Notes under the pieces: generated by a model
The model's database searches: none
What the model was told of the DNA's origin: nothing
What the model saw: only the letters and a program-made list of their open reading frames with translations
Translations under genes and position numbers: made by a program
Assembly: GCA_021202775.1 (NCBI GenBank)
Contig: JAJQCJ010000109.1
Location: 1 to 64,000, forward strand
Source of the DNA: Clostridiales bacterium
Lineage (GTDB): Bacteria > Bacillota > Clostridia > Oscillospirales > Oscillospiraceae
DNA length: 64,000 bases
Direction: 5' to 3'
Shown here: positions 13,129 to 29,688 of the stretch, piece after piece
How positions within the stretch are numbered: position 1 is the stretch's first letter
Layout of the letters: each line of letters starts with the position of its first letter

Positions 13129-13851
13129 TTAATACATTGCCAGCAGGACAGTGACCACAAAGCCAAGCAGTACAAAGGGGCCCATCGGCAGCGTGTCTTT
13201 CAAGGTCTTCTTTCGGAACAACAACAGGCTCGCAGATGCCAGCGCGCAGAGAATGCAGGAGAACAGCAATGTATATGCCGCTCCATAAAGTCCACAGAGG
13301 AATCCCAAACCGCCAAACAGCTTGACATCCCCATATCCCAGTCCCCCGTGAGAGATTTTGGATACCAGCATCAAAAACAGCATACAACCCAATCCGCCCA
13401 CAACACTGCTGAGCAGACGAGACAGTGTTCCTTCATATGTAAAAATCAGCTCTGGCACAAGGAAAAGCACGCGTCCAACCAAAAGAGTGAGAACATACGG
13501 ATGGGGGATCCTAAAAAATTTCACATCCGCCAATGCGGCACACGCCAGGACGCAATACGCCAGCAGCAGCTTCAATATACTTATCGGTGAATTCGCGCAC
13601 TGAGCCGCCTGGTACCCGCACAGACAGGCCAGCGGTACGCAGCCGAGGGCTGCAAGGAGCAATCCCCTTTTAGGCTGCGTGGCCGCTGGCTGCGGCAGTA
13701 CTTCGGTAACGGGTTCGGTTGCGGATTCGTCGGTGGGAACGGGTTCGGCATGCTCCTGTTGCCGGAGCAGCTTTGGTAGCTGCCACCTGTACCATGCGGC
13801 CAGTGTCACGAAGGAGACACAGCCCCAGGCCAGACTCCAGAGAACAGACAC
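13129..13851 (-). CDS. Prepilin peptidase, A24 family
   Basis: ADVKFFRIPHPYVL and GYGDVKLFGGLGFLCG motifs with multiple TM segments. Confidence 0.85.
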   Translation of the reverse strand: MSVLWSLAWGCVSFVTLAAWYRWQLPKLLRQQEHAEPVPTDESATEPVTEVLPQPAATQPKRGLLLAALGCVPLACLCGYQAAQCANSPISILKLLLAYCVLACAALADVKFFRIPHPYVLTLLVGRVLFLVPELIFTYEGTLSRLLSSVVGGLGCMLFLMLVSKISHGGLGYGDVKLFGGLGFLCGLYGAAYTLLFSCILCALASASLLLFRKKTLKDTLPMGPFVLLGFVVTVLLAMY

Positions 13852-13892
13852 AAAATCCCCTCCCCTGTGGTGTAAATGTGGGCAACCTTTTC

Positions 13893-14114
13893 TCAGAGAC
13901 CAAGACCGTCGAGGAAATTTGTCACATAGCCGGATACTGTCTCCATGACTGTTTTGCCAAGCGTCAGGAACAATCCGGCCAGCACAACGACGATGGCAAT
14001 GATTAGCAGTATGGAGACAAAGTTCGTGTCGCCACGGTCAGACGATTTGAACTCATTCCACCCATTTGTCACCGCAAGGTACAGGCCAAGCATCATTTGA
14101 TTCAACTGTTTCAT
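13893..14114 (-). CDS. Flp-like pilin (divergent)
   Basis: 73 aa with SSDRGDTNFVSILLIIAIVVVLAGLFLTLG, next to prepilin peptidase and TadC. Confidence 0.65.
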   Translation of the reverse strand: MKQLNQMMLGLYLAVTNGWNEFKSSDRGDTNFVSILLIIAIVVVLAGLFLTLGKTVMETVSGYVTNFLDGLGL

Positions 14115-14138
14115 AATGTGTCCCTCCTTTTTTAAATT

Positions 14139-15005
14139 TCAAAACAGCGCACCCGCGAAGGCCGCAGTAATGACAATAATCAAGATGCCGACAAATACCA
14201 GCATGGTAGGCACCAGCAGTTTGGTGGCCGCCTTTTCGCCGCTTTGGAGCATTTTCTGGCGCTTCATAGCCCAAAGCTCACTGGATTGCCGTTCCATAAA
14301 CAGCGTCAGTTCAGAGCCTCCCTTTTCCAGGCTTTGCAACATGGCGCTGGTGAATTTTTTCACCTCAAGAGAGCCAGAGAGGAGGCCAAACTGATACATC
14401 GCGTCTACTTCCGGGACGCCGTTGTTCATGTCGTCACTGGCTTTGCGCATCAGCTGATAAATGGTACTGTCACCGCTCTCGCTGACCAGGCGCCACACGT
14501 CCCGCAACACCATGCCGGAGTTTAGCAGAACGGCCATGGAAGAAACCACATCCGGCAGTTTCGCATCGCACTCCTCAGTCCGCTTGGACAAGGTGTTCGA
14601 CATATTTGTCAGGCTGTAAACTCCCATAAATACGGCAATAAAAATACCAACGGCCATTATAAAGCCTGCTGTACTGAAAAACAGCCCCGCCAGCAGGAAG
14701 GCCAGCGTCAGTGTCAAATGTACCAATGTAATTGCCTGTACCCAAGCAATATTGGCATAATAATCCGCAAATTGTTCCTTAAAGAGAATTGCAGCCTCTC
14801 GTTTGAGTTTGGCGGCTAACTTTCCGCGAAAGCGGAGGGGACCTCTGGACGACCAGGCAAACCCTGCAACATACAGACTACACAGGGGATACTCCATTCC
14901 ATCAAGAACGCTGACAGCTTCGTCATAGTTTTTGCCTCGTTTTAGTTGAATCAGGAACAAAACAGCCAAAACCGTGCCTACCGTAAGTAAGATTACTCGT
15001 GCCAT
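14139..15005 (-). CDS. tadC: TadC-like T2SS F-domain protein
   Basis: T2SSF-type sequence LPDVVSSMAVLLNSGMVLRDVWRLVSESGDSTIYQLM; position in Tad operon. Confidence 0.85.
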   Translation of the reverse strand: MARVILLTVGTVLAVLFLIQLKRGKNYDEAVSVLDGMEYPLCSLYVAGFAWSSRGPLRFRGKLAAKLKREAAILFKEQFADYYANIAWVQAITLVHLTLTLAFLLAGLFFSTAGFIMAVGIFIAVFMGVYSLTNMSNTLSKRTEECDAKLPDVVSSMAVLLNSGMVLRDVWRLVSESGDSTIYQLMRKASDDMNNGVPEVDAMYQFGLLSGSLEVKKFTSAMLQSLEKGGSELTLFMERQSSELWAMKRQKMLQSGEKAATKLLVPTMLVFVGILIIVITAAFAGALF

Positions 15006-15008
15006 AAC

Positions 15009-15854
15009 TTACCCCTTTATGTCCATGATCGACTGCGCCGTAAAGTAGGCAACAGCAAAAATGACAATCGCCACTGTTATGGCTATTATTCCAGGCACAG
15101 TTGAGAAGCTGGCGGCAAAGGAACTGCTCATATACCGCAGCATCAGCACCAGTACAACCGGAAACACGATCATCACATTAAACTGCGACTTGTTGGAGGA
15201 TATGGTGGTTTCAATTTCCTCGCTGATTTCGATTTTCTCACTGATGATGTTGTTGGTGCGGCGGACAATGTCTTTCAAGTTGCCGCCTGTGCGGTAGCAC
15301 ATGGAAAACACGATGCCAAAGCTCTTAATGTCGTCGATCTCGCTCCGCTCACCAAAGAAGGCGATGGTCTCCTCCAGCGGAACGTTGTTTTTGATGCCAT
15401 TTAACATTTCCTTGACTTCCTGCACGATATAAGCGTCTTCGGAATACTCCAGTGTAAGGTCATTGCAGGCACTTTCCAGTGATTCCTGCATATTCATACC
15501 GCTGGAAAGCGATGCTGCCAGCGCAGACAGCAACTCACGAAACTGATGGGTGATCTGCGTTTTTCGTTTATCCCGGAGCTTCCTGCTCCGCACGGATAGG
15601 AACACACTACCAACAATCACACCAACTACCAGAAAGATGACTATATTTCCGATATATGTTGCAGTGGTTGCCAAACCGTCCTCGTCCTTGAACTGTCCCC
15701 CGTAAAAAATCAGTCCAACGCCGCCGCCGACAACAGCGGCAAGGAGGAAGGTTAAAAGTTTCTCGGCCGCAGACATATAGTATACCCGATAGTTAAGCAT
15801 GGGAGTATTGAGCGCGGATGGGATATACTGCGGTTCTCTTGCTTTTTTTCCCAT
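15009..15854 (-). CDS. tadB: TadB-like T2SS F-domain protein
   Basis: QFRELLSALAASLSSGMNMQESLESACNDL motif; position in Tad operon. Confidence 0.85.
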   Translation of the reverse strand: MGKKAREPQYIPSALNTPMLNYRVYYMSAAEKLLTFLLAAVVGGGVGLIFYGGQFKDEDGLATTATYIGNIVIFLVVGVIVGSVFLSVRSRKLRDKRKTQITHQFRELLSALAASLSSGMNMQESLESACNDLTLEYSEDAYIVQEVKEMLNGIKNNVPLEETIAFFGERSEIDDIKSFGIVFSMCYRTGGNLKDIVRRTNNIISEKIEISEEIETTISSNKSQFNVMIVFPVVLVLMLRYMSSSFAASFSTVPGIIAITVAIVIFAVAYFTAQSIMDIKG

Positions 15855-15864
15855 AGTTTCTCCT

Positions 15865-17106
15865 TCAAATCACAATCTTTTTTCCCGCCAACTGTAGCTT
15901 TTGGATGTTGACCATTGGATTTTCTGTTCGTTCCAACCGGCCAGAAACACGTTCCAGGGTGGAGTTTTCATCCTCTCTGAACTCATAGAGCGGGTTCAAT
16001 TGAATCACCCCCTCTTTCACATCTAACACTTCCGTGATTGCCATCGTTTTACGGGAATGATCCCGCAAACGGGACAAATGGATGATAATGTCCAGGGCGG
16101 AGGCGATCTGCATACGAATTGCAGGCAAAGGCATTCCGGGCGCACCCTGCAGTACCATTGTTTCCAGACGGGAGAGCATATCGCTAGTGGAGTTGGCATG
16201 ACCGGTGGACAGAGAACCGTCATGACCGGTATTCATAGCCTGAAGCATATCCAGCGCCTCTCCGCCGCGCACCTCGCCTACAACAATGCGTTCTGGCCTC
16301 ATTCGCAGCGAAGACTTGATCAGATCACGGATGGTAATCTCACCTGCGCCGGCATTATTGGCATTGCGGCTTTCAAGACTGACCAGGTTGTCAATGTTGG
16401 CCAGTTGAAGTTCTGCGGAATCCTCAATGGTAATGATACGTTCTTCCTTGGGGATGTAATTGGACAAGGCATTCAGGAAGGTAGTCTTTCCGGAGCCTGT
16501 GCCACCGGAGATGAAAATATTGTATTTGGCCTCGACCAGCGTTTTCAGGACGTCAGCAATTTCCTCGGTGATAGATCCATAACGAATCAACTGTTCAATG
16601 GTCATGGGTGTTTTAGAAAACTTTCGGATGGTCACAACCGGTCCCACCAGTGAGATGGGCGGTAGAACGACATTGACACGGGATCCGTCTTCCAGTCTGG
16701 TGTCTACGATGGGGGATGCCTGACTGACCTCTCTGCCCGCTGCACCGACAATGCGCTGGATCACGTCCTCCAGACGCTTTTCACTGTCAAAAGAGGCGTT
16801 CAGCCGTTGAACCTTGCCGGCACGTTCGATGAAAATGTTCTGAGGACCATTGATCATCACCTCGGTAATGGAATCGTCTTTCAGGATTGTGTCCAAAACC
16901 CCAAGGCCACGGATGGAGCTATAAACATTTTGTACAATATTTGCCTTTTGCCGGGATGAACAGTAGGTTCCGTTCAGGCGCTGGGTGACCAGATGTTCCA
17001 GACGGATTTCTAATTCTTTATCCGAAAGGCTGCTCAGAGGCATTGCCTCCTTCGCATACTGCCGCAGTTCTTCAGTAAACTGTTGTTCCGCTTCCCGTGT
17101 CATCAT
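15865..17106 (-). CDS. tadA: TadA/CpaF-family secretion ATPase
   Basis: Walker A FISGGTGSGKTTFLNALSNYIP; MRPERIVVGEVRGGEALDMLQAMNTGHDGSLSTGHANS. Confidence 0.95.
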   Translation of the reverse strand: MMTREAEQQFTEELRQYAKEAMPLSSLSDKELEIRLEHLVTQRLNGTYCSSRQKANIVQNVYSSIRGLGVLDTILKDDSITEVMINGPQNIFIERAGKVQRLNASFDSEKRLEDVIQRIVGAAGREVSQASPIVDTRLEDGSRVNVVLPPISLVGPVVTIRKFSKTPMTIEQLIRYGSITEEIADVLKTLVEAKYNIFISGGTGSGKTTFLNALSNYIPKEERIITIEDSAELQLANIDNLVSLESRNANNAGAGEITIRDLIKSSLRMRPERIVVGEVRGGEALDMLQAMNTGHDGSLSTGHANSTSDMLSRLETMVLQGAPGMPLPAIRMQIASALDIIIHLSRLRDHSRKTMAITEVLDVKEGVIQLNPLYEFREDENSTLERVSGRLERTENPMVNIQKLQLAGKKIVI

Positions 17107-18194
17107 ATCGTGCCCCCGCCGGAAACCGGCTGAAGAATGGCATCAAGCTCACTGTTGTCTGCTAAGAGCTGAAGCAGTTCCTGTGTCGTCGCATTTTCAA
17201 TGCGGTTGACACCTCCGGCCTCTGTATAAGGCAGAGAACGTAACCGTTTTCCCGTTTTACTACTGAACCTGTTATAAAAGAGAACGATCCGATCCATCGG
17301 CAACTCTGTTCCCTGTTCGTTCAGGATGGTCAGTGCATCCAGGCAGCGATTAAGCTTGAGATTAGCCCGTTCGCTACCGTCGGAGACAAAAACAGTTCTG
17401 TAGGAGCGTTCTATCTGCTGGTACATTTGAGAGGAAAAGCAAAACGCAGTATCCACTACGATCCATTCGTAAAGCCTCGCCTTTTCCAACTCCTCAAAAA
17501 GCTGTCGCATCTTCTCCGCATCCAACTCCAACAGATCCAAAGCAGATGCACATTCAGAATAATAGAACACACCGCAGGCATCCTGCTTTGCCGCACTTTC
17601 CAGGCGCATGGAAAGCATTCCATTTGCCATAGCCAGACTGTAGAGGACATCGCTGAAACCGCTGTCTCCTCCGCCGGAAAAATACAAGTCGGCATTTCCA
17701 CAGGGTTCCAGATTTAAGTATAAAACTTTTTGACCCTGTGAGGCTAACCGACGCGCAAAGGCGGCAGCAGCCACCGAGGTACCAGTACCTCCGGCAGCGG
17801 AGCAAAAAGTGATAATCTGACAGACACGATTTAAGTCTCCCTGCAAAATCACAGAGGAGCCCGCGCTTTCTGCATATACATCCAGAAGTTCACGGTAAAT
17901 TTCGGAGATGGTCTGATATTTGCAAATCGCTCTATGCTGATTGATGAGATGAATTCCTTTTTGCGCTACGAAGTATACCAATTCTACGCTTGGGGGTAGT
18001 TTGAAATCAACAGCCCCAAATTCATCCCCCACAAGGAAAATGTTGGGGCGCTGTTCTACAAGAACGGTTTCCGCTACCTGTTTTTGTGTGAAAATGGAAA
18101 GGTCTACCTTATCTGCATATTGTAAAGTGATGGCCGCGAGTAATTTATCTGTATATTGGGTATCACTTGTTAATAGAGCGATTTTAATTTTCAA
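17103..18194 (-). CDS. tadZ: TadZ/CpaE-like ATPase
   Basis: Deviant Walker-like CSAAGGTGTSVAAAAFARRLASQGQKVLYLNLEPCG; 4-nt overlap with tadA. Apparent TTG start. Confidence 0.8.
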   Translation of the reverse strand: MKIKIALLTSDTQYTDKLLAAITLQYADKVDLSIFTQKQVAETVLVEQRPNIFLVGDEFGAVDFKLPPSVELVYFVAQKGIHLINQHRAICKYQTISEIYRELLDVYAESAGSSVILQGDLNRVCQIITFCSAAGGTGTSVAAAAFARRLASQGQKVLYLNLEPCGNADLYFSGGGDSGFSDVLYSLAMANGMLSMRLESAAKQDACGVFYYSECASALDLLELDAEKMRQLFEELEKARLYEWIVVDTAFCFSSQMYQQIERSYRTVFVSDGSERANLKLNRCLDALTILNEQGTELPMDRIVLFYNRFSSKTGKRLRSLPYTEAGGVNRIENATTQELLQLLADNSELDAILQPVSGGGTI

Positions 18195-18352
18195 GTGTGT
18201 CGCCTTCTTCTAAATCAGTGTTACATAATGAGGGGCGCATTGGTTCCATAGGCTGATAAAAGCAGAGAATTTATATAATATGATCATAACGGATGTTTTA
18301 AGTTAACTCCTGCTTCACATTAGGGGGAGGTGGTTGGGTAATTCTATTCTTC

Positions 18353-18381
18353 GTGTCGTAGAGTGTTTTACTCTACGACAC
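18353..18381. repeat. Left copy of recombinase-flanking site
   Basis: GTGTCGTAGAGT-GTTTT-ACTCTACGACAC. Positions 18355-18380 equal the reverse complement of 19810-19835. Confidence 0.95.
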
Positions 18382-18440
18382 TGTAGAGAAAACATTGAAA
18401 TTGCAGGCTATTGTGTCTTAGTGACAAGTATTTTGACTGC

Positions 18441-19559
18441 TTATGGGATTCCGGGCCAATTCACTTTCTCCATATTTTTCTGTTTCAACGCCATCGAGCA
18501 ATGCACATAGCGATTCATTGTAATGGATACATTTGCATGACCCATAATTTCGCTGAGAGACTTCATTTCAAAACCAGCTTCTATACAGCGTGTAGCAAAG
18601 GTATGTCGGCAGGTATGTACTGTAACGTTTTCCAGACCACAGGCTGCGGCATATTTGGCAAATGACCTTTGCACGGTTCGCGGCTCCATATATTGCTCTG
18701 TCCCAGTCAAAACAAAACCAGTGCCGCTTGCAGGACGAAATTGCTTGCAAAGAGCAACCATACCATCCGGAATAGGGATAGTGCGGACTGAAGAGCGGCT
18801 TTTGGGTGGCCCTATTACAATAATTGTCTTATTTTCAGTATTTGCTTCAAGATTACTGATCCGCTGCATACTTGCGTCAATTCGCAACAATTTTTTCTCT
18901 AGAAATATGTGGTCCCATTGCAACGCACACAGTTCACCTAGTCGAATGCCTGTTGTAAGTGCTAATAAAATTCCCAATTTACGCAGGTCAAGTTCCCTCA
19001 ATAGGAAATCTGCTAATGTTTTTTGCTCTTCAATGGATAAAACACGAATTTCTGTCTCTTGATCACAAGGGTATATGACATCAATTTTGCACATCTGCCC
19101 CGCGTGCTGGCTTGCTACATATTGCAGAACAGCATTTAAAACAACCAAAATGTCTTTTACTGTTTTAGGCGCAAGTTTCTTTTCCTTTAGAAGAAGTTCA
19201 CTGAATGACGATACCACCATGGAACTTACTTCAAACGGCAGCAGATTTCCAAAATAAGGGATAATATGGTTACGGAGAAAACCCTGATATTTGATATATG
19301 TCGAAGTTCGCAAGCAAATTTTTTTCTGTTGTATCCAAGTATAGCAACAAACTTCAAAAGATATCTTTTCCTTTTTCACGGAATATGGCTCACCTTGCAG
19401 ACAGCATATCCTTGCAGATTCTGCATTCTTTTTTGCTTCTGCATATGTCTTTCCATAGCAATACCCATATATAATTTTACCTGAGGAATCTCGACCTTTG
19501 CGATAGCGGGCCTCCCAACGGCCATCTTTTCTTTTAAAAATGTTCTCGCCAGTTCTCAT
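18441..19559 (-). CDS. Tyrosine-type site-specific recombinase/integrase
   Basis: TTGIRLGELCALQWDHI, HTCRHTFATRCIEAG, IMGHANVSITMNRYVH motifs (R..HxxR..H/Y). Start MRTGENIFKRKDG behind AAGGGAG. Confidence 0.92.
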   Translation of the reverse strand: MRTGENIFKRKDGRWEARYRKGRDSSGKIIYGYCYGKTYAEAKKNAESARICCLQGEPYSVKKEKISFEVCCYTWIQQKKICLRTSTYIKYQGFLRNHIIPYFGNLLPFEVSSMVVSSFSELLLKEKKLAPKTVKDILVVLNAVLQYVASQHAGQMCKIDVIYPCDQETEIRVLSIEEQKTLADFLLRELDLRKLGILLALTTGIRLGELCALQWDHIFLEKKLLRIDASMQRISNLEANTENKTIIVIGPPKSRSSVRTIPIPDGMVALCKQFRPASGTGFVLTGTEQYMEPRTVQRSFAKYAAACGLENVTVHTCRHTFATRCIEAGFEMKSLSEIMGHANVSITMNRYVHCSMALKQKNMEKVNWPGIP

Positions 19560-19734
19560 ATGATGTAAGTCTCCCTTTCCTAATTTAGCCGTTTCCATTT
19601 TCTGGTTATAATATTTTGACTGCTGATTGACTGCGAATAGCTATAAAATAAGGAATCAACAGCAATTTTTGTCGAATTTTGATAGTTGTTCTTAAATATA
19701 TCGCAAATTTTTATAATTTACATGAAAAAACTTG

Positions 19735-19763
19735 TTGAACAATCCTGAATAGTGTGTTACAAT
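19735..19763 (+). promoter_or_regulatory. Sigma70-type promoter inside the recombinase segment, directed rightward
   Basis: TTGAAC (19735-19740), 17-nt spacer, TGT-TACAAT (19758-19763) with extended -10. Confidence 0.6.
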
Positions 19764-19810
19764 ATTCTTAAATCCTAGGAAATCTCGGGCGAAATTTCCA
19801 TTTGCTTCAT

Positions 19811-19840
19811 GTCGTAGAGTAAAACACTCTACGACTTTTT
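19811..19840. repeat. Right copy of recombinase-flanking site, followed by T5 (terminator-like on + strand)
   Basis: GTCGTAGAGT-AAAAC-ACTCTACGAC-TTTTT; exact reverse complement of the left core. Confidence 0.95.
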
Positions 19841-19864
19841 GCTTACATAGAAAAGGTTAAAAAA

Positions 19865-19892
19865 GAAGCAAAGAGAATCTTCTCTTTGCTTC
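19865..19892. terminator. Strong hairpin, terminator-like on the - strand
   Basis: GAAGCAAAGAGA-ATCT-TCTCTTTGCTTC; followed by TTTTTT on the minus strand. Confidence 0.5.
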
Positions 19893-19895
19893 ATA

Positions 19896-19918
19896 TTATA
19901 CCGCTTATAGCGGTATAA
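19896..19918. repeat. Perfect inverted repeat upstream of XRE gene
   Basis: TTATACCGCT-TAT-AGCGGTATAA. Confidence 0.8.
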
Positions 19919-19995
19919 ATCAGCAAAAACAGATACTTAAATCGTGATAACTATTGCTCTTATTTGTATAAACTTATAAATAGGAGGTGGCTATT

Positions 19996-20319
19996 ATGGA
20001 TACACAGTATATCAGAGATCGAATTACAGCCTTGCGAAATCAAAAAGGTGTCTCAGAATACAAAATGAGCACGGATTTAGGACATAGCAAAAGTTATATT
20101 CAAAGTATTTCATCTGGAAAATCCCTGCCTTCCTTGTCGGAATTTCTATATATATGTGAATATCTGGAGGTAACACCGCTGGAGTTCTTCGACGATTCGA
20201 TTTCCTATCCGTCACTGGTAAATCAAATCTACGAATTGTCCAAACATATGAAAAAGGAGGATTTAGAATTGCTAATTGATGTTGCAACACGGTTGAGCTG
20301 CGATGGCAACGATGACTAA
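19996..20319 (+). CDS. XRE-family helix-turn-helix regulator
   Basis: HTH_3 pattern ITALRNQKGVSEYKMSTDLGHSKSYIQSISSGKSLPSLSEFLYICEYLEVTPLEFF; RBS AGGAGG. Confidence 0.85.
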   Translation: MDTQYIRDRITALRNQKGVSEYKMSTDLGHSKSYIQSISSGKSLPSLSEFLYICEYLEVTPLEFFDDSISYPSLVNQIYELSKHMKKEDLELLIDVATRLSCDGNDD

Positions 20320-20397
20320 AATGTCAAATTCATTTATCGTAGAAGGACTATTTCAGTAATCCGTATCATTGTTATGCAGTTTTGAGGAGAAAGAGCG

Positions 20398-21771
20398 ATG
20401 GAGAAGAAAGAAGAAAAAGAAGTTTTACAAGTATTAAAAAATAGTCAGGTATCGGAGAAACTCTGCTCCCAAGTTGCATTTGGCCTGGATACCAGCGCTG
20501 TGCTGTCCACTATCATGGAGCGAACCACTGGAGATTTTACGATAGAGGAATTGATTTCTCTTACAGCGGGGATTGCCATGGAGTACCACGACGCCGACAG
20601 CGTCATTTTCATCACCATAGACAACGAATTGTCGGCTGCGGAGTGTATCTTTGAGACGCACCGGATCGATTTTTCACCGCTTTGCGGCACCGGCCCCATG
20701 TATATGGATGAATATCCGGCGCTGTTAAAAGTTCTGATGCGGGCGCTGCTGATGGCAGTGGAGGCGAAAGGCTTTATTTCCGCGCAGAATATCCTCCCCA
20801 TGCTGCCAAACGGCTCAAGAGAGTACAAGAGGATGGAGCAAATCGGGCTGGAATCCATCATGAGGGTCAAATACGAAAAAAATGAACACCAGTTCATAGC
20901 AGTCATCAATCCCCGCAAATACGGAAAAGAGGGTGACATCCTTCGTTTGCTGGCCCGTGTGGTAGATTCCGAGATCGACAGATTGGGACAGCCGAATATG
21001 GGAGAAGGATTTTCGTTTGGCGCAGGGAAACTTGCGAAGAATGAAGTCTATGTCAGGTTGCTAAACGCCTTTGAACTGCATACAAGGAAGGGAACGCTTA
21101 CAGAGGAGGATATCCGCAACCAGGAGATCATCTTTCTGACTGTGCTGCTGATGAAGCAGGACGAAGGAATGATTCCTGCAACAACGCTCCTTCATATGCT
21201 TTGGGAGGACCCGGAGGCTCTCTCCGAGCCGGAGCGGACACTGAAAAATTTGAGTTATCGCGTCAACAAGAAATTAAAGCAGCTTTTTCCCAGGGGTGAC
21301 TTCCTGGAAATCAAAAAGAAAAGTTACATGATCAGCCAGAAATATAAAATCACGACGGACCTGGACCGATTTTCCTATATGATTCGAGATGCAGAGGGAG
21401 TTACAAACCCAGAAGCGCGGTTGGAGCGATATTTGAAGGCATTGGATGACTTTTCAGGGATCGTATTGCCACCGCAGGATCACCAGGCAATCAAGCTTGT
21501 TACTGAAAAATATGAAAGCGCCAGAAGGCGGGCGCAAAACGAATGTCTTTCGCTGATGTTCGAGCTGGGCGACTACACCAGGATGGCAGAGTATATCCGA
21601 ACGCTCTCTGTTTCGCGGACAATGGACGGAGAACTGGCGTATTGGAACGCTATGATGTATATCGATATGGGACAGCACCAGCAGGCCAGAGAATTGCTGG
21701 AGGAAAACAGTGATTACTTATCTGAAACGCAAATCAATGCTATAAAGTGCAGAATTTTGGCCAAAACATGA
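20398..21771 (+). CDS. SARP-like transcriptional regulator (winged helix plus BTAD/TPR-like C-terminus, novel N-terminal domain)
   Basis: wHTH-like IIFLTVLLMKQDEGMIPATTLLHMLWEDPEALSEPERTLKNLSYRVNKKLKQLFPRGDFLEIKKKSYMIS, then BTAD-like TTDLDRFSYMIRDAEGVTNPEARLERYLKALDDFSG. Confidence 0.65.
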   Translation: MEKKEEKEVLQVLKNSQVSEKLCSQVAFGLDTSAVLSTIMERTTGDFTIEELISLTAGIAMEYHDADSVIFITIDNELSAAECIFETHRIDFSPLCGTGPMYMDEYPALLKVLMRALLMAVEAKGFISAQNILPMLPNGSREYKRMEQIGLESIMRVKYEKNEHQFIAVINPRKYGKEGDILRLLARVVDSEIDRLGQPNMGEGFSFGAGKLAKNEVYVRLLNAFELHTRKGTLTEEDIRNQEIIFLTVLLMKQDEGMIPATTLLHMLWEDPEALSEPERTLKNLSYRVNKKLKQLFPRGDFLEIKKKSYMISQKYKITTDLDRFSYMIRDAEGVTNPEARLERYLKALDDFSGIVLPPQDHQAIKLVTEKYESARRRAQNECLSLMFELGDYTRMAEYIRTLSVSRTMDGELAYWNAMMYIDMGQHQQARELLEENSDYLSETQINAIKCRILAKT

Positions 21772-21779
21772 GAAAATGG

Positions 21780-21845
21780 GCGAGTATGCAGAAAGTATGC
21801 AAAAAGTATGCTGAAAAGATGTTGAAAGTTTGTGGAAAGTTTGTG
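21780..21845. repeat. Six 11-bp direct repeats (GAAAGTwTGyr)
   Basis: GCGAGTATGCA/GAAAGTATGCA/AAAAGTATGCT/GAAAAGATGTT/GAAAGTTTGTG/GAAAGTTTGTG at exact 11-nt steps. Confidence 0.9.
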
Positions 21846-21866
21846 GATTTTCCAAAACAGCTCCTG

Positions 21867-21872
21867 TATAAT
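21867..21872 (+). promoter_or_regulatory. -10 element TATAAT without a good -35, downstream of 11-bp repeats
   Basis: CTGTATAATAGG; about 73 nt upstream of the next start codon (21945). Confidence 0.45.
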
Positions 21873-21944
21873 AGGTTGTGACATGGGAAAACCGCTGTGC
21901 AGCAAAGGGCAGGCTCCCATAGAAAAAACAGGGAGGTCAGACCA

Positions 21945-22145
21945 ATGCAGGATGAGAAGCCACCAGTTCAGTTGCTTACCTCATGTTGCCCGGTATGCTG
22001 TTCTCGATTGATATGCGGAGAAACCGTGAAACGAGGGCTACATCAATGCACCAAATGTAAAAGATACTGGGTAATTGAGATAAGCGAAGGCGATGTTCAT
22101 GTTAAGGAGGCATCTAGGGATTACCGCAGGATGCTTGCCTTGTAG
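21945..22145 (+). CDS. Small zinc-ribbon-like protein (66 aa)
   Basis: CCPVCCSRLICGETVKRGLHQCTKCKRYWVIEI (paired CxxC); RBS GGGAGG. Confidence 0.6.
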   Translation: MQDEKPPVQLLTSCCPVCCSRLICGETVKRGLHQCTKCKRYWVIEISEGDVHVKEASRDYRRMLAL

Positions 22146-22279
22146 TTATATATCGCAAAACAAAACTGAATATATTGAGACATACTGTGAGCGCCGTCGA
22201 ATTGGGCCGGCACCCTCAAGGACGTAAATCAGGAGTCAAAAGTTTGTTAGATAGAGCTGTACCGGTCAGTGAGCCGGAC

Positions 22280-22342
22280 GAGTTCGGCAGACGGAAATGC
22301 AATTCCACAGGAGAATTGCGCCATCTGCCGGACTCTTTTTTT
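22280..22342 (+). terminator. Intrinsic terminator
   Basis: GAGTTCGGCAGACGG...CCATCTGCCGGACTC followed by TTTTTTT; nested hairpin GCAATTC/GAATTGC. Confidence 0.75.
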
Positions 22343-22427
22343 GTCTCTAAGTCCACTCCGCCAGTATGTTCGCCAATTTACTGCCTCCATTCAGAGTTGC
22401 TTTTCCGCAACATGAATGGAGGTTTTT

Positions 22428-22718
22428 ATGTATTTTGATGCTGTCAAATTTGGCAAGCGGATTCAGGAGGTAAGGCGCGAACGCGGACTCACCCAAGAGG
22501 AGTTGGCAGATCGTTTGAGATTATCCAGCAAGCAATATATCAGCAGGATTGAACGGGGTGAGTGTGCCTGCTCTATTGATCTCCTTGTGGAATTGGTCTG
22601 CGCACTTCATATTAGTGCTGATTATTTGCTGATGGGAAAAGAGTCGGGATGTGAACATATAAAAGATGACCTGCTTTCTGTAGTTGGCCGTCTAGCCGCT
22701 ATAGCAAATGCAATATAA
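22428..22718 (+). CDS. XRE-family helix-turn-helix regulator
   Basis: FGKRIQEVRRERGLTQEELADRLRLSSKQYISRIERGECACSIDLLVELVCALHISADYLL; RBS TGGAGG. Confidence 0.9.
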   Translation: MYFDAVKFGKRIQEVRRERGLTQEELADRLRLSSKQYISRIERGECACSIDLLVELVCALHISADYLLMGKESGCEHIKDDLLSVVGRLAAIANAI

Positions 22719-22726
22719 GCCGAAAA

Positions 22727-22767
22727 GTAACACTACGAGTGTTACCAGGTAACACTACGAGTGCCAC
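22727..22767. promoter_or_regulatory. Two tandem palindromic sites, candidate XRE operator
   Basis: GTAACACT-ACG-AGTGTTAC (22727-22745) and GTAACACT-ACG-AGTGCCAC (22749-22767), 22-bp offset. Confidence 0.5.
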
Positions 22768-22849
22768 TACAAAGCCAATCCATCCTGCTACAATGTACTT
22801 ACAGCCAATAAAAAGGCCCAACCTGTACTTTGAAAACTGAATATACAGT

Positions 22850-23197
22850 ACACAGGTACGTTCCTGTTGTGGTGAGCCATATCAGCGGTACGCCGTGACC
22901 CAGCCTCCAGGCCGGCAGCGATTTCTACCGTCTGTGACAGTCGCTTCGCAACCGATTCGGCCACGACCCATAGCGGGGATAATGATACTTCTGTCCAGCC
23001 ACAGCCCCGGTCAACAGCCGGGAACACGCAATGGGGACAGCTCCGTGAGACCCACGGGGAGGTTAGACGCCTATGGCGCTGTGCGAACAGCCGCCTGTGT
23101 ATTCCCACTAAGCTCTGGGGTGTCGTGGACAAATGAGAGTTTGTCATAAAATTCGGGAGGACTGCGGTATCGGTGACGGCCTGACAGTCCTCTTTTA
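22850..23197 (+). ncRNA. Candidate structured RNA ending in an intrinsic terminator
   Basis: No convincing ORF; stems including GGCG-CTGT-GCGA-ACAG-C-CGCC (GNRA loop) and CCCGG...CCGGG; terminator GAGGACTG...CAGTCCTC-TTTT at 23157-23196. Confidence 0.4.
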
Positions 23198-23239
23198 CAT
23201 CGGGAACGATGAATCATACACAAATTGAAGGTGATAAAA

Positions 23240-24133
23240 ATGTTGAAGATCGACCCAGAATTTGCTGACCAGATCCCGCCCTTGACGGAGGAGGAGTTTC
23301 AGCAACTGGAGGCCAACATTCTGAGCGATGGTGAGGTAATCAATCCCATCATCATCTGGAATGGTGTGATTGTGGACGGGCATAACCGCTTCCGCATTCT
23401 GGAACAGCATCCGGAGATTCCGTACAGAACCTTCGAAAAGAAGTTCTCAGACCGCAGCGAGGTGGTAGCCTGGATTTGCAAAAACCAGCTTGGACGACGT
23501 AACCTGACCCCGGAACAGCGAAAATATCTTATTGGCAAACAGTATGGTGCAGAAAAACAAGGGCCTTTCAGAGGAAATCAATACACTTTATCCTGTGAAA
23601 GTGGTTGTTCCCAAAATGGGAACAACCAAAAAACCTGCGAGAAAGTTGCCAGGGAGAACCATGTGAGTAAGAACTATGTGATTCGTGCCAACCACTATGC
23701 AGATGGTGTTGACGCTGCCGAAGATGTTGTCCCAGGCACCCGCCATGAAATCCTCTCCGGCAAAATCTGCCCTGTTGATTCGGCTGTGCAGGCTGTCGCC
23801 CAGGCTCCGCCTGAAGAACGGGAGGCGTTCGCCAATCATCTCCGTGACCCGGAGGTGCAGCGGCGGGGAAGGAAACGTCCAGAGTCTGATGAGGACAGAA
23901 TCATGAGGAAGATTGCGGATGACATGGACGATCCAGGAGGGCAAGTGTCTGGTTCTTCTATGCTTGCTACCCTCCACGGAGTGACCGCCACAATGATACG
24001 AGGCTGCAACCGATGCTTTGAAATGTTCCCATCCTTGCTTACAGAGAGCGCTTATCGGGAACAGGTCATTGCAATCATGCAGGAGCCCAAAACTTATATT
24101 ATAACTCTGGAAACAGGAGGAGTACCAGAATGA
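23240..24133 (+). CDS. ParB/Srx-like nuclease-domain protein
   Basis: PPLTEEEFQQLEANILSDGEVINPIIIWNGVIVDGHNRFRILEQH. Confidence 0.75.
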   Translation: MLKIDPEFADQIPPLTEEEFQQLEANILSDGEVINPIIIWNGVIVDGHNRFRILEQHPEIPYRTFEKKFSDRSEVVAWICKNQLGRRNLTPEQRKYLIGKQYGAEKQGPFRGNQYTLSCESGCSQNGNNQKTCEKVARENHVSKNYVIRANHYADGVDAAEDVVPGTRHEILSGKICPVDSAVQAVAQAPPEEREAFANHLRDPEVQRRGRKRPESDEDRIMRKIADDMDDPGGQVSGSSMLATLHGVTATMIRGCNRCFEMFPSLLTESAYREQVIAIMQEPKTYIITLETGGVPE

Positions 24134-24924
24134 CAGATAAAGGCTTGTTTTATGAGGAAATGGAGATCAGCACGGCAGACCTCCGGGTTCCCCACGCCAG
24201 CTACCAGAGGAGCCTGAGTGTGGCTCGTGTGAGACGAATCGCCCAGAACTTTGACGAGCGCATCGCCAACAAGCCGAAGGTCAGCTATCGGGACGGCAAG
24301 TTCTATGTCTTTGACGGACAGCACACCATCGCAGCCCGGCGTCTCCGCAACAACGGCGAAGACTTGCCTGTCGCCTGCAAGGTTTATTACGGCCTCACGG
24401 AGCAGGACGAGGCGCTCCTGTTCGCACAGCAGTTTGGATTCTCCGATGTGCTGACTGCCGGTGCCAAAATGCGGGCGCTGATCTACGGCAGAGACCCGGA
24501 AGCCTTGGCCTTTCTGGAGGCAACAGAAAGCGTCGGTCTGCACCTGGATTACACCCAGAACCTCGGTGAGAACCTCGGTGAAAACCGGATTGGCTGCATC
24601 AGCACGGCATTCCGGGCATTCCAGCGGGTCGGCAGAGAGAGCTACACCGAAGCGCTCAGCATTCTCACGGAGGCATGGCATGGGGAACCTCACTCCCTGC
24701 GGGGCGAGACTGTCCGGGCCATGATCGAGTTCGTCGATCTCTATAAGGGCGAGTTCAGCCGTGACCGGCTGGTGGCTAAGCTCCAGATGGTCGATCCCCT
24801 GACGATCTACCGCAAGGGACAGGCGATGGGTGTCAACATGGCCGGGTACAAGAAGTATCTGTATCAGGTCTTTTGCATCTACAACGGCTCCAGCAAGAAG
24901 TCGGCGCTGCCCCTGAAGTTCTAA
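24130..24924 (+). CDS. DUF6551-like (ParB-related) protein
   Basis: VPHASYQRSLSVARVRRIAQNFDERIANKPKVSYRDGKFYVFDGQHTIAARRLR; 4-nt overlap with the preceding gene. Confidence 0.7.
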   Translation: MTDKGLFYEEMEISTADLRVPHASYQRSLSVARVRRIAQNFDERIANKPKVSYRDGKFYVFDGQHTIAARRLRNNGEDLPVACKVYYGLTEQDEALLFAQQFGFSDVLTAGAKMRALIYGRDPEALAFLEATESVGLHLDYTQNLGENLGENRIGCISTAFRAFQRVGRESYTEALSILTEAWHGEPHSLRGETVRAMIEFVDLYKGEFSRDRLVAKLQMVDPLTIYRKGQAMGVNMAGYKKYLYQVFCIYNGSSKKSALPLKF

Positions 24925-24937
24925 TGGGAGGACAGCT

Positions 24938-25366
24938 ATGAGGAAGGATTGGAAATATCGCCGTGGCGACGTGTACCTCGCTGACTGCGGCGAATGGCAT
25001 GGCTCCATACAGGGCGGCATTCGCCCTGTTGTGGTCATGCAGAACGATACAGGGAACCGGCACAGCCCCACGCTCTGCGTGGTGAAGCTGACCTCAAAGG
25101 TGAAGAAGAAGCCCAATCAGCCGACCCACTATATGCTGAAAAATGTGAGGGGTATCCCGTATCCCTCGCAGGTTTTGGCAGAGCAGCCGGACACCATCAA
25201 CAAGTCGGACATTATCCGCTATATGGCGCATCTGTCGGACAAGCATATGGCGGAAATCAACCGATGTCTGGAAGTGGAGCTGGGACTGGATGCGGAACAC
25301 AAACTGACTTCCTGCCAGTGCGTAAGAAGCTGCGCCCATCAGACAGGTGAGCCTGGCAGCGTATAA
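24938..25366 (+). CDS. PemK/MazF-family toxin-like protein
   Basis: RRGDVYLADCGEWHGSIQGGIRPVVVMQNDTGNRHSPTLCVVKLTSKVKK. Confidence 0.85.
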   Translation: MRKDWKYRRGDVYLADCGEWHGSIQGGIRPVVVMQNDTGNRHSPTLCVVKLTSKVKKKPNQPTHYMLKNVRGIPYPSQVLAEQPDTINKSDIIRYMAHLSDKHMAEINRCLEVELGLDAEHKLTSCQCVRSCAHQTGEPGSV

Positions 25367-25421
25367 GCGTTTAGAGAAAAGGAAATACTAAGCCAAAATC
25401 ATCCAGAAGAAAGGACACGCT

Positions 25422-25583
25422 ATGATTATCGCAGAACTGCAGACCGAGGCGGCCACCGTTCGGATTCACGATGAATTTTTTGTTGGCGCTTTCCAGGAAA
25501 ATTTGGAGCACATCAGCCAGATCATCACCAACTCCTACAAGAGAAGGAATACCGAAAAAGAAAAAACTCCCAAGCAGGAGTAA
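25422..25583 (+). CDS. Small protein of recombinase-associated type (53 aa)
   Basis: Hand-translated MIIAELQTEAATVRIHDEFFVGAFQENLEHISQIITNSYKRRNTEKEKTPKQE; resembles small ORFs often found before serine recombinases in Firmicutes elements. Confidence 0.55.
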   Translation: MIIAELQTEAATVRIHDEFFVGAFQENLEHISQIITNSYKRRNTEKEKTPKQE

Positions 25584-25587
25584 AACT

Positions 25588-25613
25588 TATGCCGCAGCAT
25601 CGACTGCGGCATA
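25588..25613. terminator. Hairpin after the small ORF
   Basis: TATGCCGCAG-CATCGA-CTGCGGCATA; no clear T-tract. Confidence 0.4.
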
Positions 25614-25691
25614 TTACATAATTTGGAGCGGTTCGCACCGTTGACGCTGCGCTGAACTGCAACTATAATAATGCCAGAAAGGAGGCCCCCT

Positions 25692-25742
25692 ATGGAGCAG
25701 TACGTCAGGTACCTTCTGCCTTTCTTTCCGTTGCGACAGTGA
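25692..25742 (+). pseudogene. Possible 5' remnant of a serine recombinase gene
   Basis: RBS AAAGGAGG then ATGGAGCAGTACGTCAGG...TGA (MEQYVRYLLPFFPLRQ*), stopping at the island edge. Confidence 0.35.
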
Positions 25743-25779
25743 AAAACCTCTCATCCTCCCCAGAGGGAGAATGAGAGGT
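25742..25779 (-). terminator. Intrinsic terminator of spoIVB
   Basis: ACCTCTCAT.../ATGAGAGGT stem with T-run on the minus strand. Confidence 0.75.
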
Positions 25780-25839
25780 CAAACTCGTTCCGGCGGCGGC
25801 CCGCCGCCCCAGAGGAGCATGGCAGCCCGCCGCCGCAGC

Positions 25840-26904
25840 TTACCCGGCCGCCTCCAGCATGGTCTCGGCCAGTATCCCGTATCCGCAGGTGGGGTCATTG
25901 ACCAGAACGTGTGTCACCGCCCCCACCAGCATCCCGTTTTGCAGGATGGGCGACCCGCTCATCCCCTGCACAATGCCCCTTGTCTCCTCCAGCAGGACCG
26001 GGTCCACCACGCGGATCATCAGGTTCCGGGTGGCGGACAGGCTTTCCGGGTAGACCCGCAGAATCTCCACCGTGTACTCCCGCACCTCATCCCCGCTGAT
26101 GTTGCTGAGAATGGTGGCCCTTCCGGTGGAGACCTCGCCGCGGCTGGCCACCGGCAGCGCCGTACCGTCGAAGACCTCCCCGTCCACCGTGCCAAAGACG
26201 CCGCAGTCCGTGTTGGCGGACAGGCTGCCCAGGGTCTGCTCCAGGTCAAAGCTGCCGTGGAGCTGCCCGGGGGAGCCCTGCGCCCCCTTCACCACGCCGG
26301 TGACGGTGGACGGCATGATGGAGCCGCTGCGCAGGGGCATCAGAACATCCGTGTCCACATCGGTGACGCCGTGGCCCAGGGCGGCGAAGGTCCCGGTTTC
26401 CGGCTCGTAGTAGGTGACGGTGCCGATGCCCGCCATGGAGTCCCGCACCCAAACCCCCAGGCGGTAGGTGCCGTCCGACAGGCAGGGGACGGAGTCCGCC
26501 GTCAGCGACAGCCGCCTGCCGTCCCGGAGGGCGCAGATGGTGACGGCCTCATCCCCGATGGTTTGCAGCGCCTCCGTCACATCCGCGATGCTGTTGACAT
26601 ATTCATCCCCGATTTCGGTTATAATATCGCCAACCTTCAAACCGCAGTCCTCAGCGGGGGAGACGGCGCCGGCCTCCCCTTCCACCGCTGAAAAGCCCAC
26701 CACCAATACGCCATGGGAGAACAGCTTGATGCCCACCGTTCTCCCCACCGGCACCAGGCAGCGCCGCTCAGCCGACACTGCGCAGGCGGCGGCCCTTTGA
26801 TTTGGCCCGGTGATGCCCCATGTCCCCATACCGACCAGCAGCGCCGCCCCGATCAGGGCCGCCGCCAGCGTGTGCCAACGCAATTTTTTCTGTTTTTTTC
26901 TCAT
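25840..26904 (-). CDS. spoIVB: SpoIVB peptidase
   Basis: PDZ-like segment plus S55 motif GIVQGMSGSPILQNGMLVGAVTHVLVNDPTCGYGI; RBS GGAGGAA before ATG at 26904. Confidence 0.93.
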   Translation of the reverse strand: MRKKQKKLRWHTLAAALIGAALLVGMGTWGITGPNQRAAACAVSAERRCLVPVGRTVGIKLFSHGVLVVGFSAVEGEAGAVSPAEDCGLKVGDIITEIGDEYVNSIADVTEALQTIGDEAVTICALRDGRRLSLTADSVPCLSDGTYRLGVWVRDSMAGIGTVTYYEPETGTFAALGHGVTDVDTDVLMPLRSGSIMPSTVTGVVKGAQGSPGQLHGSFDLEQTLGSLSANTDCGVFGTVDGEVFDGTALPVASRGEVSTGRATILSNISGDEVREYTVEILRVYPESLSATRNLMIRVVDPVLLEETRGIVQGMSGSPILQNGMLVGAVTHVLVNDPTCGYGILAETMLEAAG

Positions 26905-27082
26905 ACGATTCCTCCATTCCGCATCGCGTCCGTGTTTAATATGGCTGGAATCCGGGAAAATAAGCGGCGCCGGGGTTGGGAAACTCAGACACCTTTGGCA
27001 TGGCACCCGCTGCCAGCGCTGAGACACGGGACGTATCGCCCCGGGGCGCGGGGAGGAAAACGGCGCCCTCCCATATCCTTCC

Positions 27083-27133
27083 AAAAAAACCGCAGCGCAG
27101 CCCGCTTCTCTGACAGGAGAAGCGGACTGCGCT
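27083..27133 (-). terminator. Intrinsic terminator after the LCP gene
   Basis: 17-bp stem AGCGCAGcCCGCTTCTC/GAGAAGCGGaCTGCGCT with T7 on the minus strand. Confidence 0.8.
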
Positions 27134-27161
27134 GCCGGCAGTCTGTATGGAAATGGAACCG

Positions 27162-28295
27162 CTACTCTGCGGTTACGGCGGAGCTTTCCGCGGTTATGGC
27201 GGAGCTTTCTGCGGGCAGGTCGCCGGAGGAGGCGCTGCCGTCCTCCTCGTCCGTGTCGCCGTAAAGCCAGCCATAGAGGGTGCTGCGCACCTCGTCCCAG
27301 TCGTTCATCACCAGCACGTCCATGCCGCGGATGATGTGGTTGGCATACATCCCGTTCTGGGGCAGGCTGTAGGAGGCCAGACCGGCATCGAAGATGGCAT
27401 AGGCGGAGGCGGCGATGCTGATGATCTGGGTGTTGGTCATGTCGGTGGCCAGGTCATCTGCAATGGCGTCGTACACCTGGAGCAGGGCGAAAATGCTCTC
27501 CCCCTTCAACTCCTCAAAGACGGCGGTGATCAGCTTGCGCTGGCGGGCGGTGCGGCTGAAGTCGCTGTCGATCTTGCGGATACGGGCATAGTCCAGCGCG
27601 GTGACGCCGTCCAGGTGGTTCATCCCCACCACCAGGTCGGTGGAAGGCCCGCCCTGTAGATAGACCTCATACTCGCCGTCCTCCCCGCCGCTGAGGTAAT
27701 TGACCTCCGCCTCGGTCAGCTCAATGTCCACACCCCCCAGGGTGTCAATGACATCGATGAAGCCGTTAAAGTCGATCTGCACATTGTAATCGATCTGAAT
27801 CCCGTAGTTCAGCTCGATGGTGGCGTCCAGCAGCTCCGTGCCGCCGAACCGATAGGCGGCGTTGATGCGGTTGTTCAGGTAATCCGGAATCTGTACATAG
27901 GTGTCCCGCAGGAGGGAGACCATGGAAATCTGCTCCGTAATGGTGTTAATGCTCAGGAGGATTATGCTGTCGGAGCGGCCGGCGTCGTCGTCAGAGCGGG
28001 AGTCCACGCCGATCAGCAGGATATTGCACACGCCGTCCACCTGGGTGACCACGTTGGCCTTGCCCCAGTCCAGGATCTCCTCGCTGATGGTGTCCGATTC
28101 GGTGGCCTCATCCGTTTCGCTCTCCTCGGCCGCCTCTGCCTCCACATATGACTCCGCGTTCAGCTGACCGATTTTGCTCAGCTCATAGTTTACAAAGATC
28201 GCCGCGCCGATCACAAGAACCAGAATCAGCGCCAGCAGGATTAGCAGCACCCGTTTCAGGACGCTCTTTCGCTGTGGGTAGTTTTTCTTTGCCAT
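27162..28295 (-). CDS. LytR-CpsA-Psr (LCP) family protein
   Basis: NILLIGVDSRSDDDAGRSDSIILLSINTITEQISMVSLLRDTYVQIPDYLNNRINAAYRFGG. Confidence 0.93.
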   Translation of the reverse strand: MAKKNYPQRKSVLKRVLLILLALILVLVIGAAIFVNYELSKIGQLNAESYVEAEAAEESETDEATESDTISEEILDWGKANVVTQVDGVCNILLIGVDSRSDDDAGRSDSIILLSINTITEQISMVSLLRDTYVQIPDYLNNRINAAYRFGGTELLDATIELNYGIQIDYNVQIDFNGFIDVIDTLGGVDIELTEAEVNYLSGGEDGEYEVYLQGGPSTDLVVGMNHLDGVTALDYARIRKIDSDFSRTARQRKLITAVFEELKGESIFALLQVYDAIADDLATDMTNTQIISIAASAYAIFDAGLASYSLPQNGMYANHIIRGMDVLVMNDWDEVRSTLYGWLYGDTDEEDGSASSGDLPAESSAITAESSAVTAE

Positions 28296-28415
28296 AGCCC
28301 GGTATCCTTTCTCAAGCGAGACGCCTTTCGCCCACTTTTTACAGATTCCTTACCAGTTTACTACAGTCGTGATGGAAAATCAAGTTAGATTTTCGGCGTT
28401 TCCACACATTTTCTG

Positions 28416-28445
28416 TTGACAAAACAGACCGCCCGGGGTCATAAT
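28416..28445 (+). promoter_or_regulatory. Sigma70-type promoter for the CDP-glycerol transferase genes
   Basis: TTGACA-N18-CATAAT. Confidence 0.5.
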
Positions 28446-28477
28446 AACATCAATCGACATGAAATGAGGAATATGAC

Positions 28478-29611
28478 TTGCGTTTTTTTCTGTTTCTCGC
28501 ACGCTGGGGCCTGCGCCTTCTTTACATACCGCTCCTTCCGCTGAAGCCCCGCAACAAGGTGGTCATGCTTTCCCGGGAGGCGGACACGCCGCCGCTGGAT
28601 TTCCGGCTGATTGAAAAAGAGCTGAACCGTCAGTCGCCGGAGACGGAGGTGGTCTATTTTTGCAAAAAAATGACAAAATCGGTGTCGATTTTTTCCTACT
28701 GTCTGCTGATCCTCCGGTCGCTGTACCACATCGCCACGGCCAGCGTGGCCATCACCGACACCTACTGCATCCAGCTCAGCGTCCTACCCAAAAAGAAGGG
28801 GCTGACGGTGATTCAGATCTGGCACGCCCTGGGGGCGGTGAAGAAATTCAGCTATCAGTGCCTGGACACCCCCTACGGCCACAGCGCCGCCACGGCGAAG
28901 GCCATGTGCATGCACAAAAACTATGATTATATTCTCTGCGCCAGCGAGGCCACCCGGGCCATTTACGCCCAGGGGTTCCACGTCCCCCAGGAGCGGATTC
29001 TGGTGAAGGGGATGCCCAGGGTGGACTATATCCAGCGCCCCCAGCGGGGCCTCCGGGAAAAGCTGGAGGCCCCGCGGCCCGACCTGGCGGGGAAGAAGGT
29101 GCTGCTGTACCTGCCCACCTTCCGGGACGGGCTGGAGGAAGGGGTGGACGCCCTGGTGCGGGCCGCCGCCGGGGACCCGGAGATGGCCCTCCTGGTGAAG
29201 CCCCACCCCCTGTCCAACCTCCGGCTGCCGGAGGAACTGCAAACCCCGGCGGGCTGGGGCACCTACGACCTGATGAAGGTGTGCGACAGCGTCATCACCG
29301 ACTACTCCGCCTCCTCCCTGGAGGCCAGTCTGCTGGACAAGGAGATCTATTTCTACCTCTTTGACCATGACAGCTATCTGGAGAATCAGGGGCTGAACGT
29401 AGACCCCCTCTATGAGCTGTCGGACGCCTGCTCTGTCACGGCGGAGGGGGTTCTGGCCCTGGCTAAGGGGGACAGCTATCCCTGGGAGGCCCTCCGGCGC
29501 TTCCGGGAAAAGTACATCGAGACGGCGGGAGACAACAACACCCGGCAGGTGACGGCCTTCCTGCTGGAGCAGATTCCCGCATCGCTGCGGCAGACGCCGG
29601 CGGGCGTGTAA
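28478..29611 (+). CDS. CDP-glycerol glycerophosphotransferase family protein
   Basis: VIQIWHALGAVKKFSYQ; GMPRVDYI; LLYLPTFRDG; KPHPLSN; DSVITDYSASSLEASLLDKEIYFYLFDHDSY. Confidence 0.85.
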   Translation: MRFFLFLARWGLRLLYIPLLPLKPRNKVVMLSREADTPPLDFRLIEKELNRQSPETEVVYFCKKMTKSVSIFSYCLLILRSLYHIATASVAITDTYCIQLSVLPKKKGLTVIQIWHALGAVKKFSYQCLDTPYGHSAATAKAMCMHKNYDYILCASEATRAIYAQGFHVPQERILVKGMPRVDYIQRPQRGLREKLEAPRPDLAGKKVLLYLPTFRDGLEEGVDALVRAAAGDPEMALLVKPHPLSNLRLPEELQTPAGWGTYDLMKVCDSVITDYSASSLEASLLDKEIYFYLFDHDSYLENQGLNVDPLYELSDACSVTAEGVLALAKGDSYPWEALRRFREKYIETAGDNNTRQVTAFLLEQIPASLRQTPAGV

Positions 29612-29623
29612 GAAAAGCTGTAG

Positions 29624-29642
29624 GGGCGGCCTCTGGCCGCCC
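29624..29642. repeat. GC-rich palindrome, REP-like
   Basis: GGGCGGCC-TCT-GGCCGCCC between two transferase genes. Confidence 0.5.
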
Positions 29643-29688
29643 GAAGCAGCCGACAGGCGTTTGAGAGAAGCAGGAGTGTGATAAAACG

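Follow-up and report, generated by a model that had tools for sequence, protein, structure and literature searches.

The window, the whole 64,000-nucleotide stretch of DNA analysed here, carries two core (crossover) sites at positions 18355-18380 and 19810-19835, which are exact reverse complements of each other over 26 nt and lie 1429 nt apart. Each site is palindromic by itself, with arms of at least 10 nt flanking an asymmetric 5-nt centre, the left one reading GTCGTAGAGT-GTTTT-ACTCTACGAC and the right one GTCGTAGAGT-AAAAC-ACTCTACGAC. A palindrome search allowing up to three mismatches returned only these two sites in the 64-kb window, where 0.01 matches were expected from shuffled sequences, and the same two only in the 2.52-Mb genome of 174 contigs. 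The segment between them contains a single gene, located on the minus strand (18441-19598) and encoding a tyrosine recombinase of 385 aa with an arm-binding-like N-terminal domain (Phage_integrase, E=1.4e-23; Phage_int_SAM_3, E=2.2e-8). To the left, also on the minus strand, lies tadZ (17103-18194; PF21194 TadZ-like_ARD, E=3.8e-23), the first gene of the predicted target operon, and then the rest of the Tad core (13129-17106), consisting of tadA (15865-17106), two T2SSF genes (15009-15854 and 14139-15005) and a prepilin peptidase gene (13129-13851). To the right, on the plus strand, a Cro/C1-type HTH gene (19987-20319; HTH_3, E=4.8e-7) is followed by a gene for a 457-aa protein (20398-21771) with no significant match in Pfam or NCBIfam. 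The initial annotation had described the sites as exact reverse complements, enclosing essentially one tyrosine recombinase gene and adjoining a Tad operon, all of which was confirmed; its partition of each site into ~9-bp arms and a 7-nt spacer is an equivalent split of the same sequence.

The recombinase looks intact, as its reading frame and catalytic residues are kept. The R-K-H-R-H-Y set of tyrosine recombinases is present as R219, K266, H328, R331, H354 and Y364, which are invariant across a 55-member alignment of relatives, and the protein is therefore not a serine recombinase of the kind found in Hin-type systems. An AlphaFold model (mean pLDDT 86) showed an N-terminal domain with strands at residues 20-22, 28-36 and 42-49 and a helix at 52-67; three strands and one helix are the layout of the Tn916-type arm-binding domain (PMC8138268). 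The best PDB matches of the model were lambda integrase with its arm-binding domain (1z1b, the top match) and then the Tn1549 integrase (6en2/6emy). No promoter of the recombinase's own stood out in a sigma-A-type consensus scan of the cassettes, the window's included.

Scanning of genome contigs identified 80 relatives of the recombinase with 37-54% identity, hosted mostly by gut Oscillospiraceae and Lachnospiraceae and in some cases by Synergistota and Bacilli, and most of their genes have a similar palindrome on either side, in inverted copies. The family core-site consensus is TYGCAGAGT-N5-ACTCTGCGA, in which the arms are conserved and the centre is variable. The centre was identical in inverted orientation at 58 of the 61 loci with a detectable pair, a count for which sites were chosen partly by spacer match; when sites were picked on arm score only, the spacers were identical in inverted orientation at 42 of 43 loci and in direct orientation at none. 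There were 48 distinct centres among the 58 loci, and the between-locus centre match was 0.7%. A centre constant within a locus and variable between loci is the pattern that strand exchange between two sites would maintain, and spacers identical in inverted orientation lead to inversion, not excision. The window cassette, with two sites whose identical asymmetric spacers stand in inverted orientation, has the same arrangement. The median family cassette measures 1500 bp, with the 5'-side site preceding the start codon by ~250 bp and the other lying ~105 bp past the gene. In a tree of 133 related recombinases, all rows with flanking inverted repeats fell into one fully supported clade of 115 rows, of which 30 had no repeat detected by that search, partly because contigs end there; the same search found no flanking inverted repeats around the 18 recombinases outside the clade, all from the window's genus.

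Both orientations of the cassette were encountered among relatives. In L074 and L077, the same cassette (85%) lies between two conserved flanks and points in opposite directions; the native sequences of the two loci gave three separate alignments with the flanks reversed, and only after one of them had been flipped in silico was a single collinear alignment obtained (2939 bp, 79.6%). Opposite orientation with one conserved flank was seen in L049/L063 (95.5% over 5.8 kb) and also in L084/L099, L056/L057, L213/L216 and L040/L055, the last being two loci in one genome. Since only one flank is conserved in most flipped pairs, larger rearrangements are possible for those pairs. Pairs in the same orientation also occur, for example L047/L107 and L034/L058. 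The alignment of related genomes that had been proposed initially as a check for the flipped orientation thus gave a divided answer: flipped cassettes exist at related loci, and no genome was found with the window's locus in the other orientation. Furthermore, contig ends cluster just outside the sites, with 9 of 40 falling within 120 bp where a uniform model gives a probability of ~1e-7, as mixed-orientation populations would cause, although repeats can break assemblies too.

Nearly every cassette of the family possesses a sigma-A-type promoter between the recombinase start and the 5'-side site, directed outward and typically reading TTGAAA-17-TATAAT with the −10 element ~28 bp from the site. 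In the consensus scan, the mean z was +2.9 outward and −0.04 inward, and the mean best score was 12.4 outward compared with 6.8 inward and 6.8 in shuffles. The counterpart in the window, as placed by consensus scan only, is TTGAAC-17-TACAAT with a TG before the −10 (19735-19763, plus strand), an outward promoter conserved in almost all family cassettes; compared with the family consensus, the window's copy is weaker, and its distance from the site is 47-48 bp, not ~28. This predicted promoter reads out across the right site and currently faces the HTH gene; inversion would turn it to tadZ, with a predicted start near 18420 and hence, by coordinate arithmetic, ~225 nt ahead of the tadZ start (18194). 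The tadZ leader itself revealed no promoter above background, with a best score of 6.2 where shuffled sequences gave 5.8 +/- 2.1. In the present orientation, the first element that the rightward promoter meets is the hairpin of the right core site followed by TTTTT (19811-19840, plus strand), which scores as a terminator by consensus match only and would apply to transcripts from the cassette promoter in this orientation. Such terminator-like hairpins were found within 150 bp on the promoter-facing side at 8 of 59 loci (the window, L172 and L212 among them), compared with 0 of 57 for the opposite side (P=0.006). Judged from its sequence, the assembled orientation, with the promoter pointing away from Tad, is predicted to be OFF.

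A k-mer search of both non-coding cassette ends at 58 loci brought out the motif GCAGTCA, which is present at 47 of the 58 upstream and 48 of the 58 downstream ends of family cassettes, with 126 of 127 copies on the recombinase sense strand and the copies often in tandem, 12-13 bp apart. By comparison, 64 kb of recombinase coding sequence contained seven copies. The window cassette has three on the minus strand, which read TGACTGC on the plus strand, one directly after the recombinase gene (18434-18440) and two upstream of it (19617-19623 and 19628-19634) as tandem copies 11 bp apart. Diverged cassettes have other repeats in a similar layout at both ends (ATGGTCA in L171, AAGCCGTCG in L212 and GAATTCGCCGTC in L187). 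As a lambda/Tn916-like N-terminal domain is present too, the GCAGTCA motifs look like integrase arm sites, and we regard them as putative binding sites of that domain.

Taken together, positions 18355-19835 (1.48 kb) very probably represent a self-contained promoter cassette that is invertible by its own recombinase and would thereby switch the Tad pilus operon on and off. The initial annotation had read the locus as an inverton on the grounds that same-spacer sites in inverted orientation give inversion, and that reading is supported by the family, in its inverted-only spacer match (42 of 43 loci, none direct), its flipped members and its conserved outward promoter, as well as by the 18 other integrases of the genus that have no such repeats. 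For the window itself we infer the activity of the enzyme, flipping at the locus, binding of the motifs and the effect on Tad transcription. In the mechanism that we propose, the recombinase would grip the two palindromic core sites via its core-binding and catalytic domains, its N-terminal domain probably binding the internal GCAGTCA motifs as well, and strand exchange inside the identical spacers would invert the segment. The cassette would carry one strong outward promoter near its right end, which in the assembled orientation would fire to the right, through the terminator-like site, toward the HTH and 457-aa genes, and in the inverted orientation would fire to the left into tadZ, turning the Tad pilus operon on.

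In a survey of Tad loci, 22 genomes of the order were TadA-positive and the upstream regions of 15, the window not counted, were examined. In four of them (L169, L171, L172 and L179) a recombinase of the clade, 31-36% identical to the window's, is located directly upstream of tadZ. Three of these loci have inverted sites of other sequence together with a TTGACA-17-TATAAT promoter, the end of its −10 and the site being 23-25 bp apart, and at L179 the recombinase is present and an inverted repeat was not found. Two fecal contigs, L212 and L217, likewise carry a recombinase upstream of tadZ and inverted sites, and in L212 homologues of the HTH and 457-aa genes lie on the far side from Tad, matching the layout of the window. 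The recombinase is thus found upstream of tadZ at seven Tad loci including the window, some of them distant, with inverted sites at six of the seven. At all seven, the recombinase reads toward Tad and the promoter end points away, which has a probability of P=0.016 under a 50:50 switch, and the assembled state may therefore be a preferred OFF state. Flipped Tad cassettes were sought in the genera of G293, G158 and G212 and none was found. The same bias, along with the lack of a sigma-A-like promoter for the recombinase, would also fit an inverton that is locked in the window's genome, the enzyme or its expression being too weak and the promoter being kept in the Tad-OFF orientation; we consider this unlikely, as the window has core sites that are perfect inverted copies and an intact frame with all catalytic residues, and as flipped cassettes occur at other loci of the family. 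At three loci where no recombinase is present upstream of tadZ (L174, L181 and L182), short inverted repeats of 13-17 nt were noticed there, ~90-140 bp apart, which are possibly small invertons of another kind.

Homologues of the HTH and 457-aa genes are also neighbours in G010 and G017, two genomes of the same genus without the cassette. DNA homology with these genomes begins abruptly at position 20362, and the Tad operon and cassette, leftward of this point, are absent there; within the genus, only the window's genome has the Tad and cassette region. That the assembled promoter faces the HTH gene, and that the HTH and 457-aa homologues lie opposite Tad in L212 as well, could be taken to mean that inversion mainly serves this side, or moves the recombinase relative to outside transcription, with Tad having its own promoter. 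This is somewhat less likely still than a locked inverton: distant genera also have a related recombinase placed upstream of tadZ, with diverged core sites; the tadZ leader has no promoter above background; in the window, L172 and L212 the terminator-like hairpins stand on the side that the promoter faces, away from Tad; and cassette-free genomes of the genus have homologues of the two genes. A minimal mobile insertion element, that is, an integrase gene with the palindromes as its terminal inverted repeats, is very improbable, for although Tn916/lambda-type recombinases are used as mobile-element markers (PMC8138268), the relatives occur in many gene contexts and several per genome, and the Tad and cassette region is confined within the genus to the window's genome, the spacers match in inverted orientation only and so predict inversion and not excision, relatives carry the flipped cassette between conserved flanks, the outward promoter is conserved at one end, and no empty site was found, the genus relatives lacking both Tad and cassette with homology from 20362 only. 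An integrative mobile element with attachment sites in direct orientation was likewise rejected, a direct spacer match having been found at none of 43 loci.

The G+C content is 0.35-0.42 in the cassette, 0.45-0.54 in the Tad region and above 0.6 from ~26 kb on (analysed over 18000-32000), and the Tad region is possibly an acquired island. A phage origin was considered and rejected: P0001 had no relative in IMG/VR, and the matches in the phage collection are unannotated fecal contigs, one of which contains a whole Tad operon and is therefore probably bacterial DNA. L212 (MT835594.1) and L217 (MT839697.1) were deposited as 'Bacteriophage sp.' and carry Tad genes and the cassette; both are probably bacterial DNA.

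Known systems share single features with the proposed Tad switch. Hin, a serine recombinase, depends on Fis and an enhancer, and the recombinases of fim and RecV type are simple enzymes without an arm-binding domain, encoded outside the inverted segment. The window enzyme, in contrast, is a tyrosine recombinase, unrelated in fold to Hin and accompanied by arm-like motifs, and, unlike the fim/RecV type, it is encoded inside the segment and has an arm-binding-like domain. The likeness to the Salmonella Hin flagellar switch (named in PMC5903667) lies in the recombinase gene and outward promoter within an invertible segment of 1-1.5 kb, and that to the fim-type and RecV/CwpV-type systems of E. coli and Clostridioides difficile (PMC5903667, PMC2784873) in a tyrosine recombinase inverting a promoter or leader between short inverted repeats. 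In the fimbrial inverton of Providencia stuartii, an inverted segment of 844 bp encloses the recombinase ORF (PMC5903667), as in the window, although its repeats are imperfect and 14 bp long and the ORF is smaller. Both promoter inversion and a recombinase inside the inverted segment are hence already known, from Hin and from P. stuartii (PMC5903667). A 2025 report describes a Clostridia inverton group 139 with invertase group 35, for which flipping was measured (PMC11892184), and which resembles our family as a Firmicutes inverton group of gut Clostridia tied to tyrosine-type integrases; its printed examples are segments of 205-228 bp with the integrase nearby. The integrases of Tn916/Tn1549 and lambda are alike in domain layout and catalytic residues and also have short repeats on one strand, spaced by about one helical turn, close to their recombination sites, yet they integrate and excise mobile elements, whereas the clade of the window is associated with an outward promoter and core sites in inverted orientation. 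A literature search, with most subscription papers outside its coverage, returned no account of an inverton driven by an arm-binding integrase with arm sites inside the segment and no description of Tad pili switched by DNA inversion, and an exact-motif search gave chance matches only.

The first outward genes next to the cassettes encode sugar transferases, epimerases, SLH surface proteins, proteins with an N-terminal methylation motif and DEAD/ResIII helicases, and annotation of the neighbours across the family revealed mixed functions with no single target class, so that the cassette looks like a portable switch. We consider it rather probable that this arm-binding-type integrase clade of gut Bacillota and Synergistota consists of former movers of mobile elements that now serve as resident promoter-inverting switches. 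These would be portable, keep their arm sites within the DNA that they invert, and have come to stand repeatedly before pilus and glycan genes as well as surface-protein and helicase/restriction-like genes. Tyrosine recombinases with an arm-binding domain serve as markers of mobile elements (PMC8138268); the clade suggests that many annotated site-specific integrases of gut Clostridia act instead as phase-variation switches. Paired palindromes, matching inverted spacers, an outward promoter and same-strand arm-like motifs form a signature by which phase-variable operons could be predicted from assemblies alone, and the Tad pili of several gut genera are predicted to be switched by DNA inversion.

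Some family loci depart from the simple two-site layout. Tandem arrays of two to three core sites, ~30-80 bp apart, were observed at one or both ends in L049, L054, L059, L063 and L065, and likewise in L068, L069, L079, L184 and L185. In Thomasclavelia (L105, 1765-1797 and 5794-7198), the site occurs a third time at a distance of ~4 kb from the cassette, and comparison of the flanks with L104 suggests a larger multi-site invertible region. Short segments of ~0.2-0.5 kb without a recombinase also occur between inverted family sites (L186:5886-6395, L189:3746-4018 and L190:6413-6623); the presence of the same sites without the enzyme suggests action in trans, and these segments are probably promoter invertons served in this manner.
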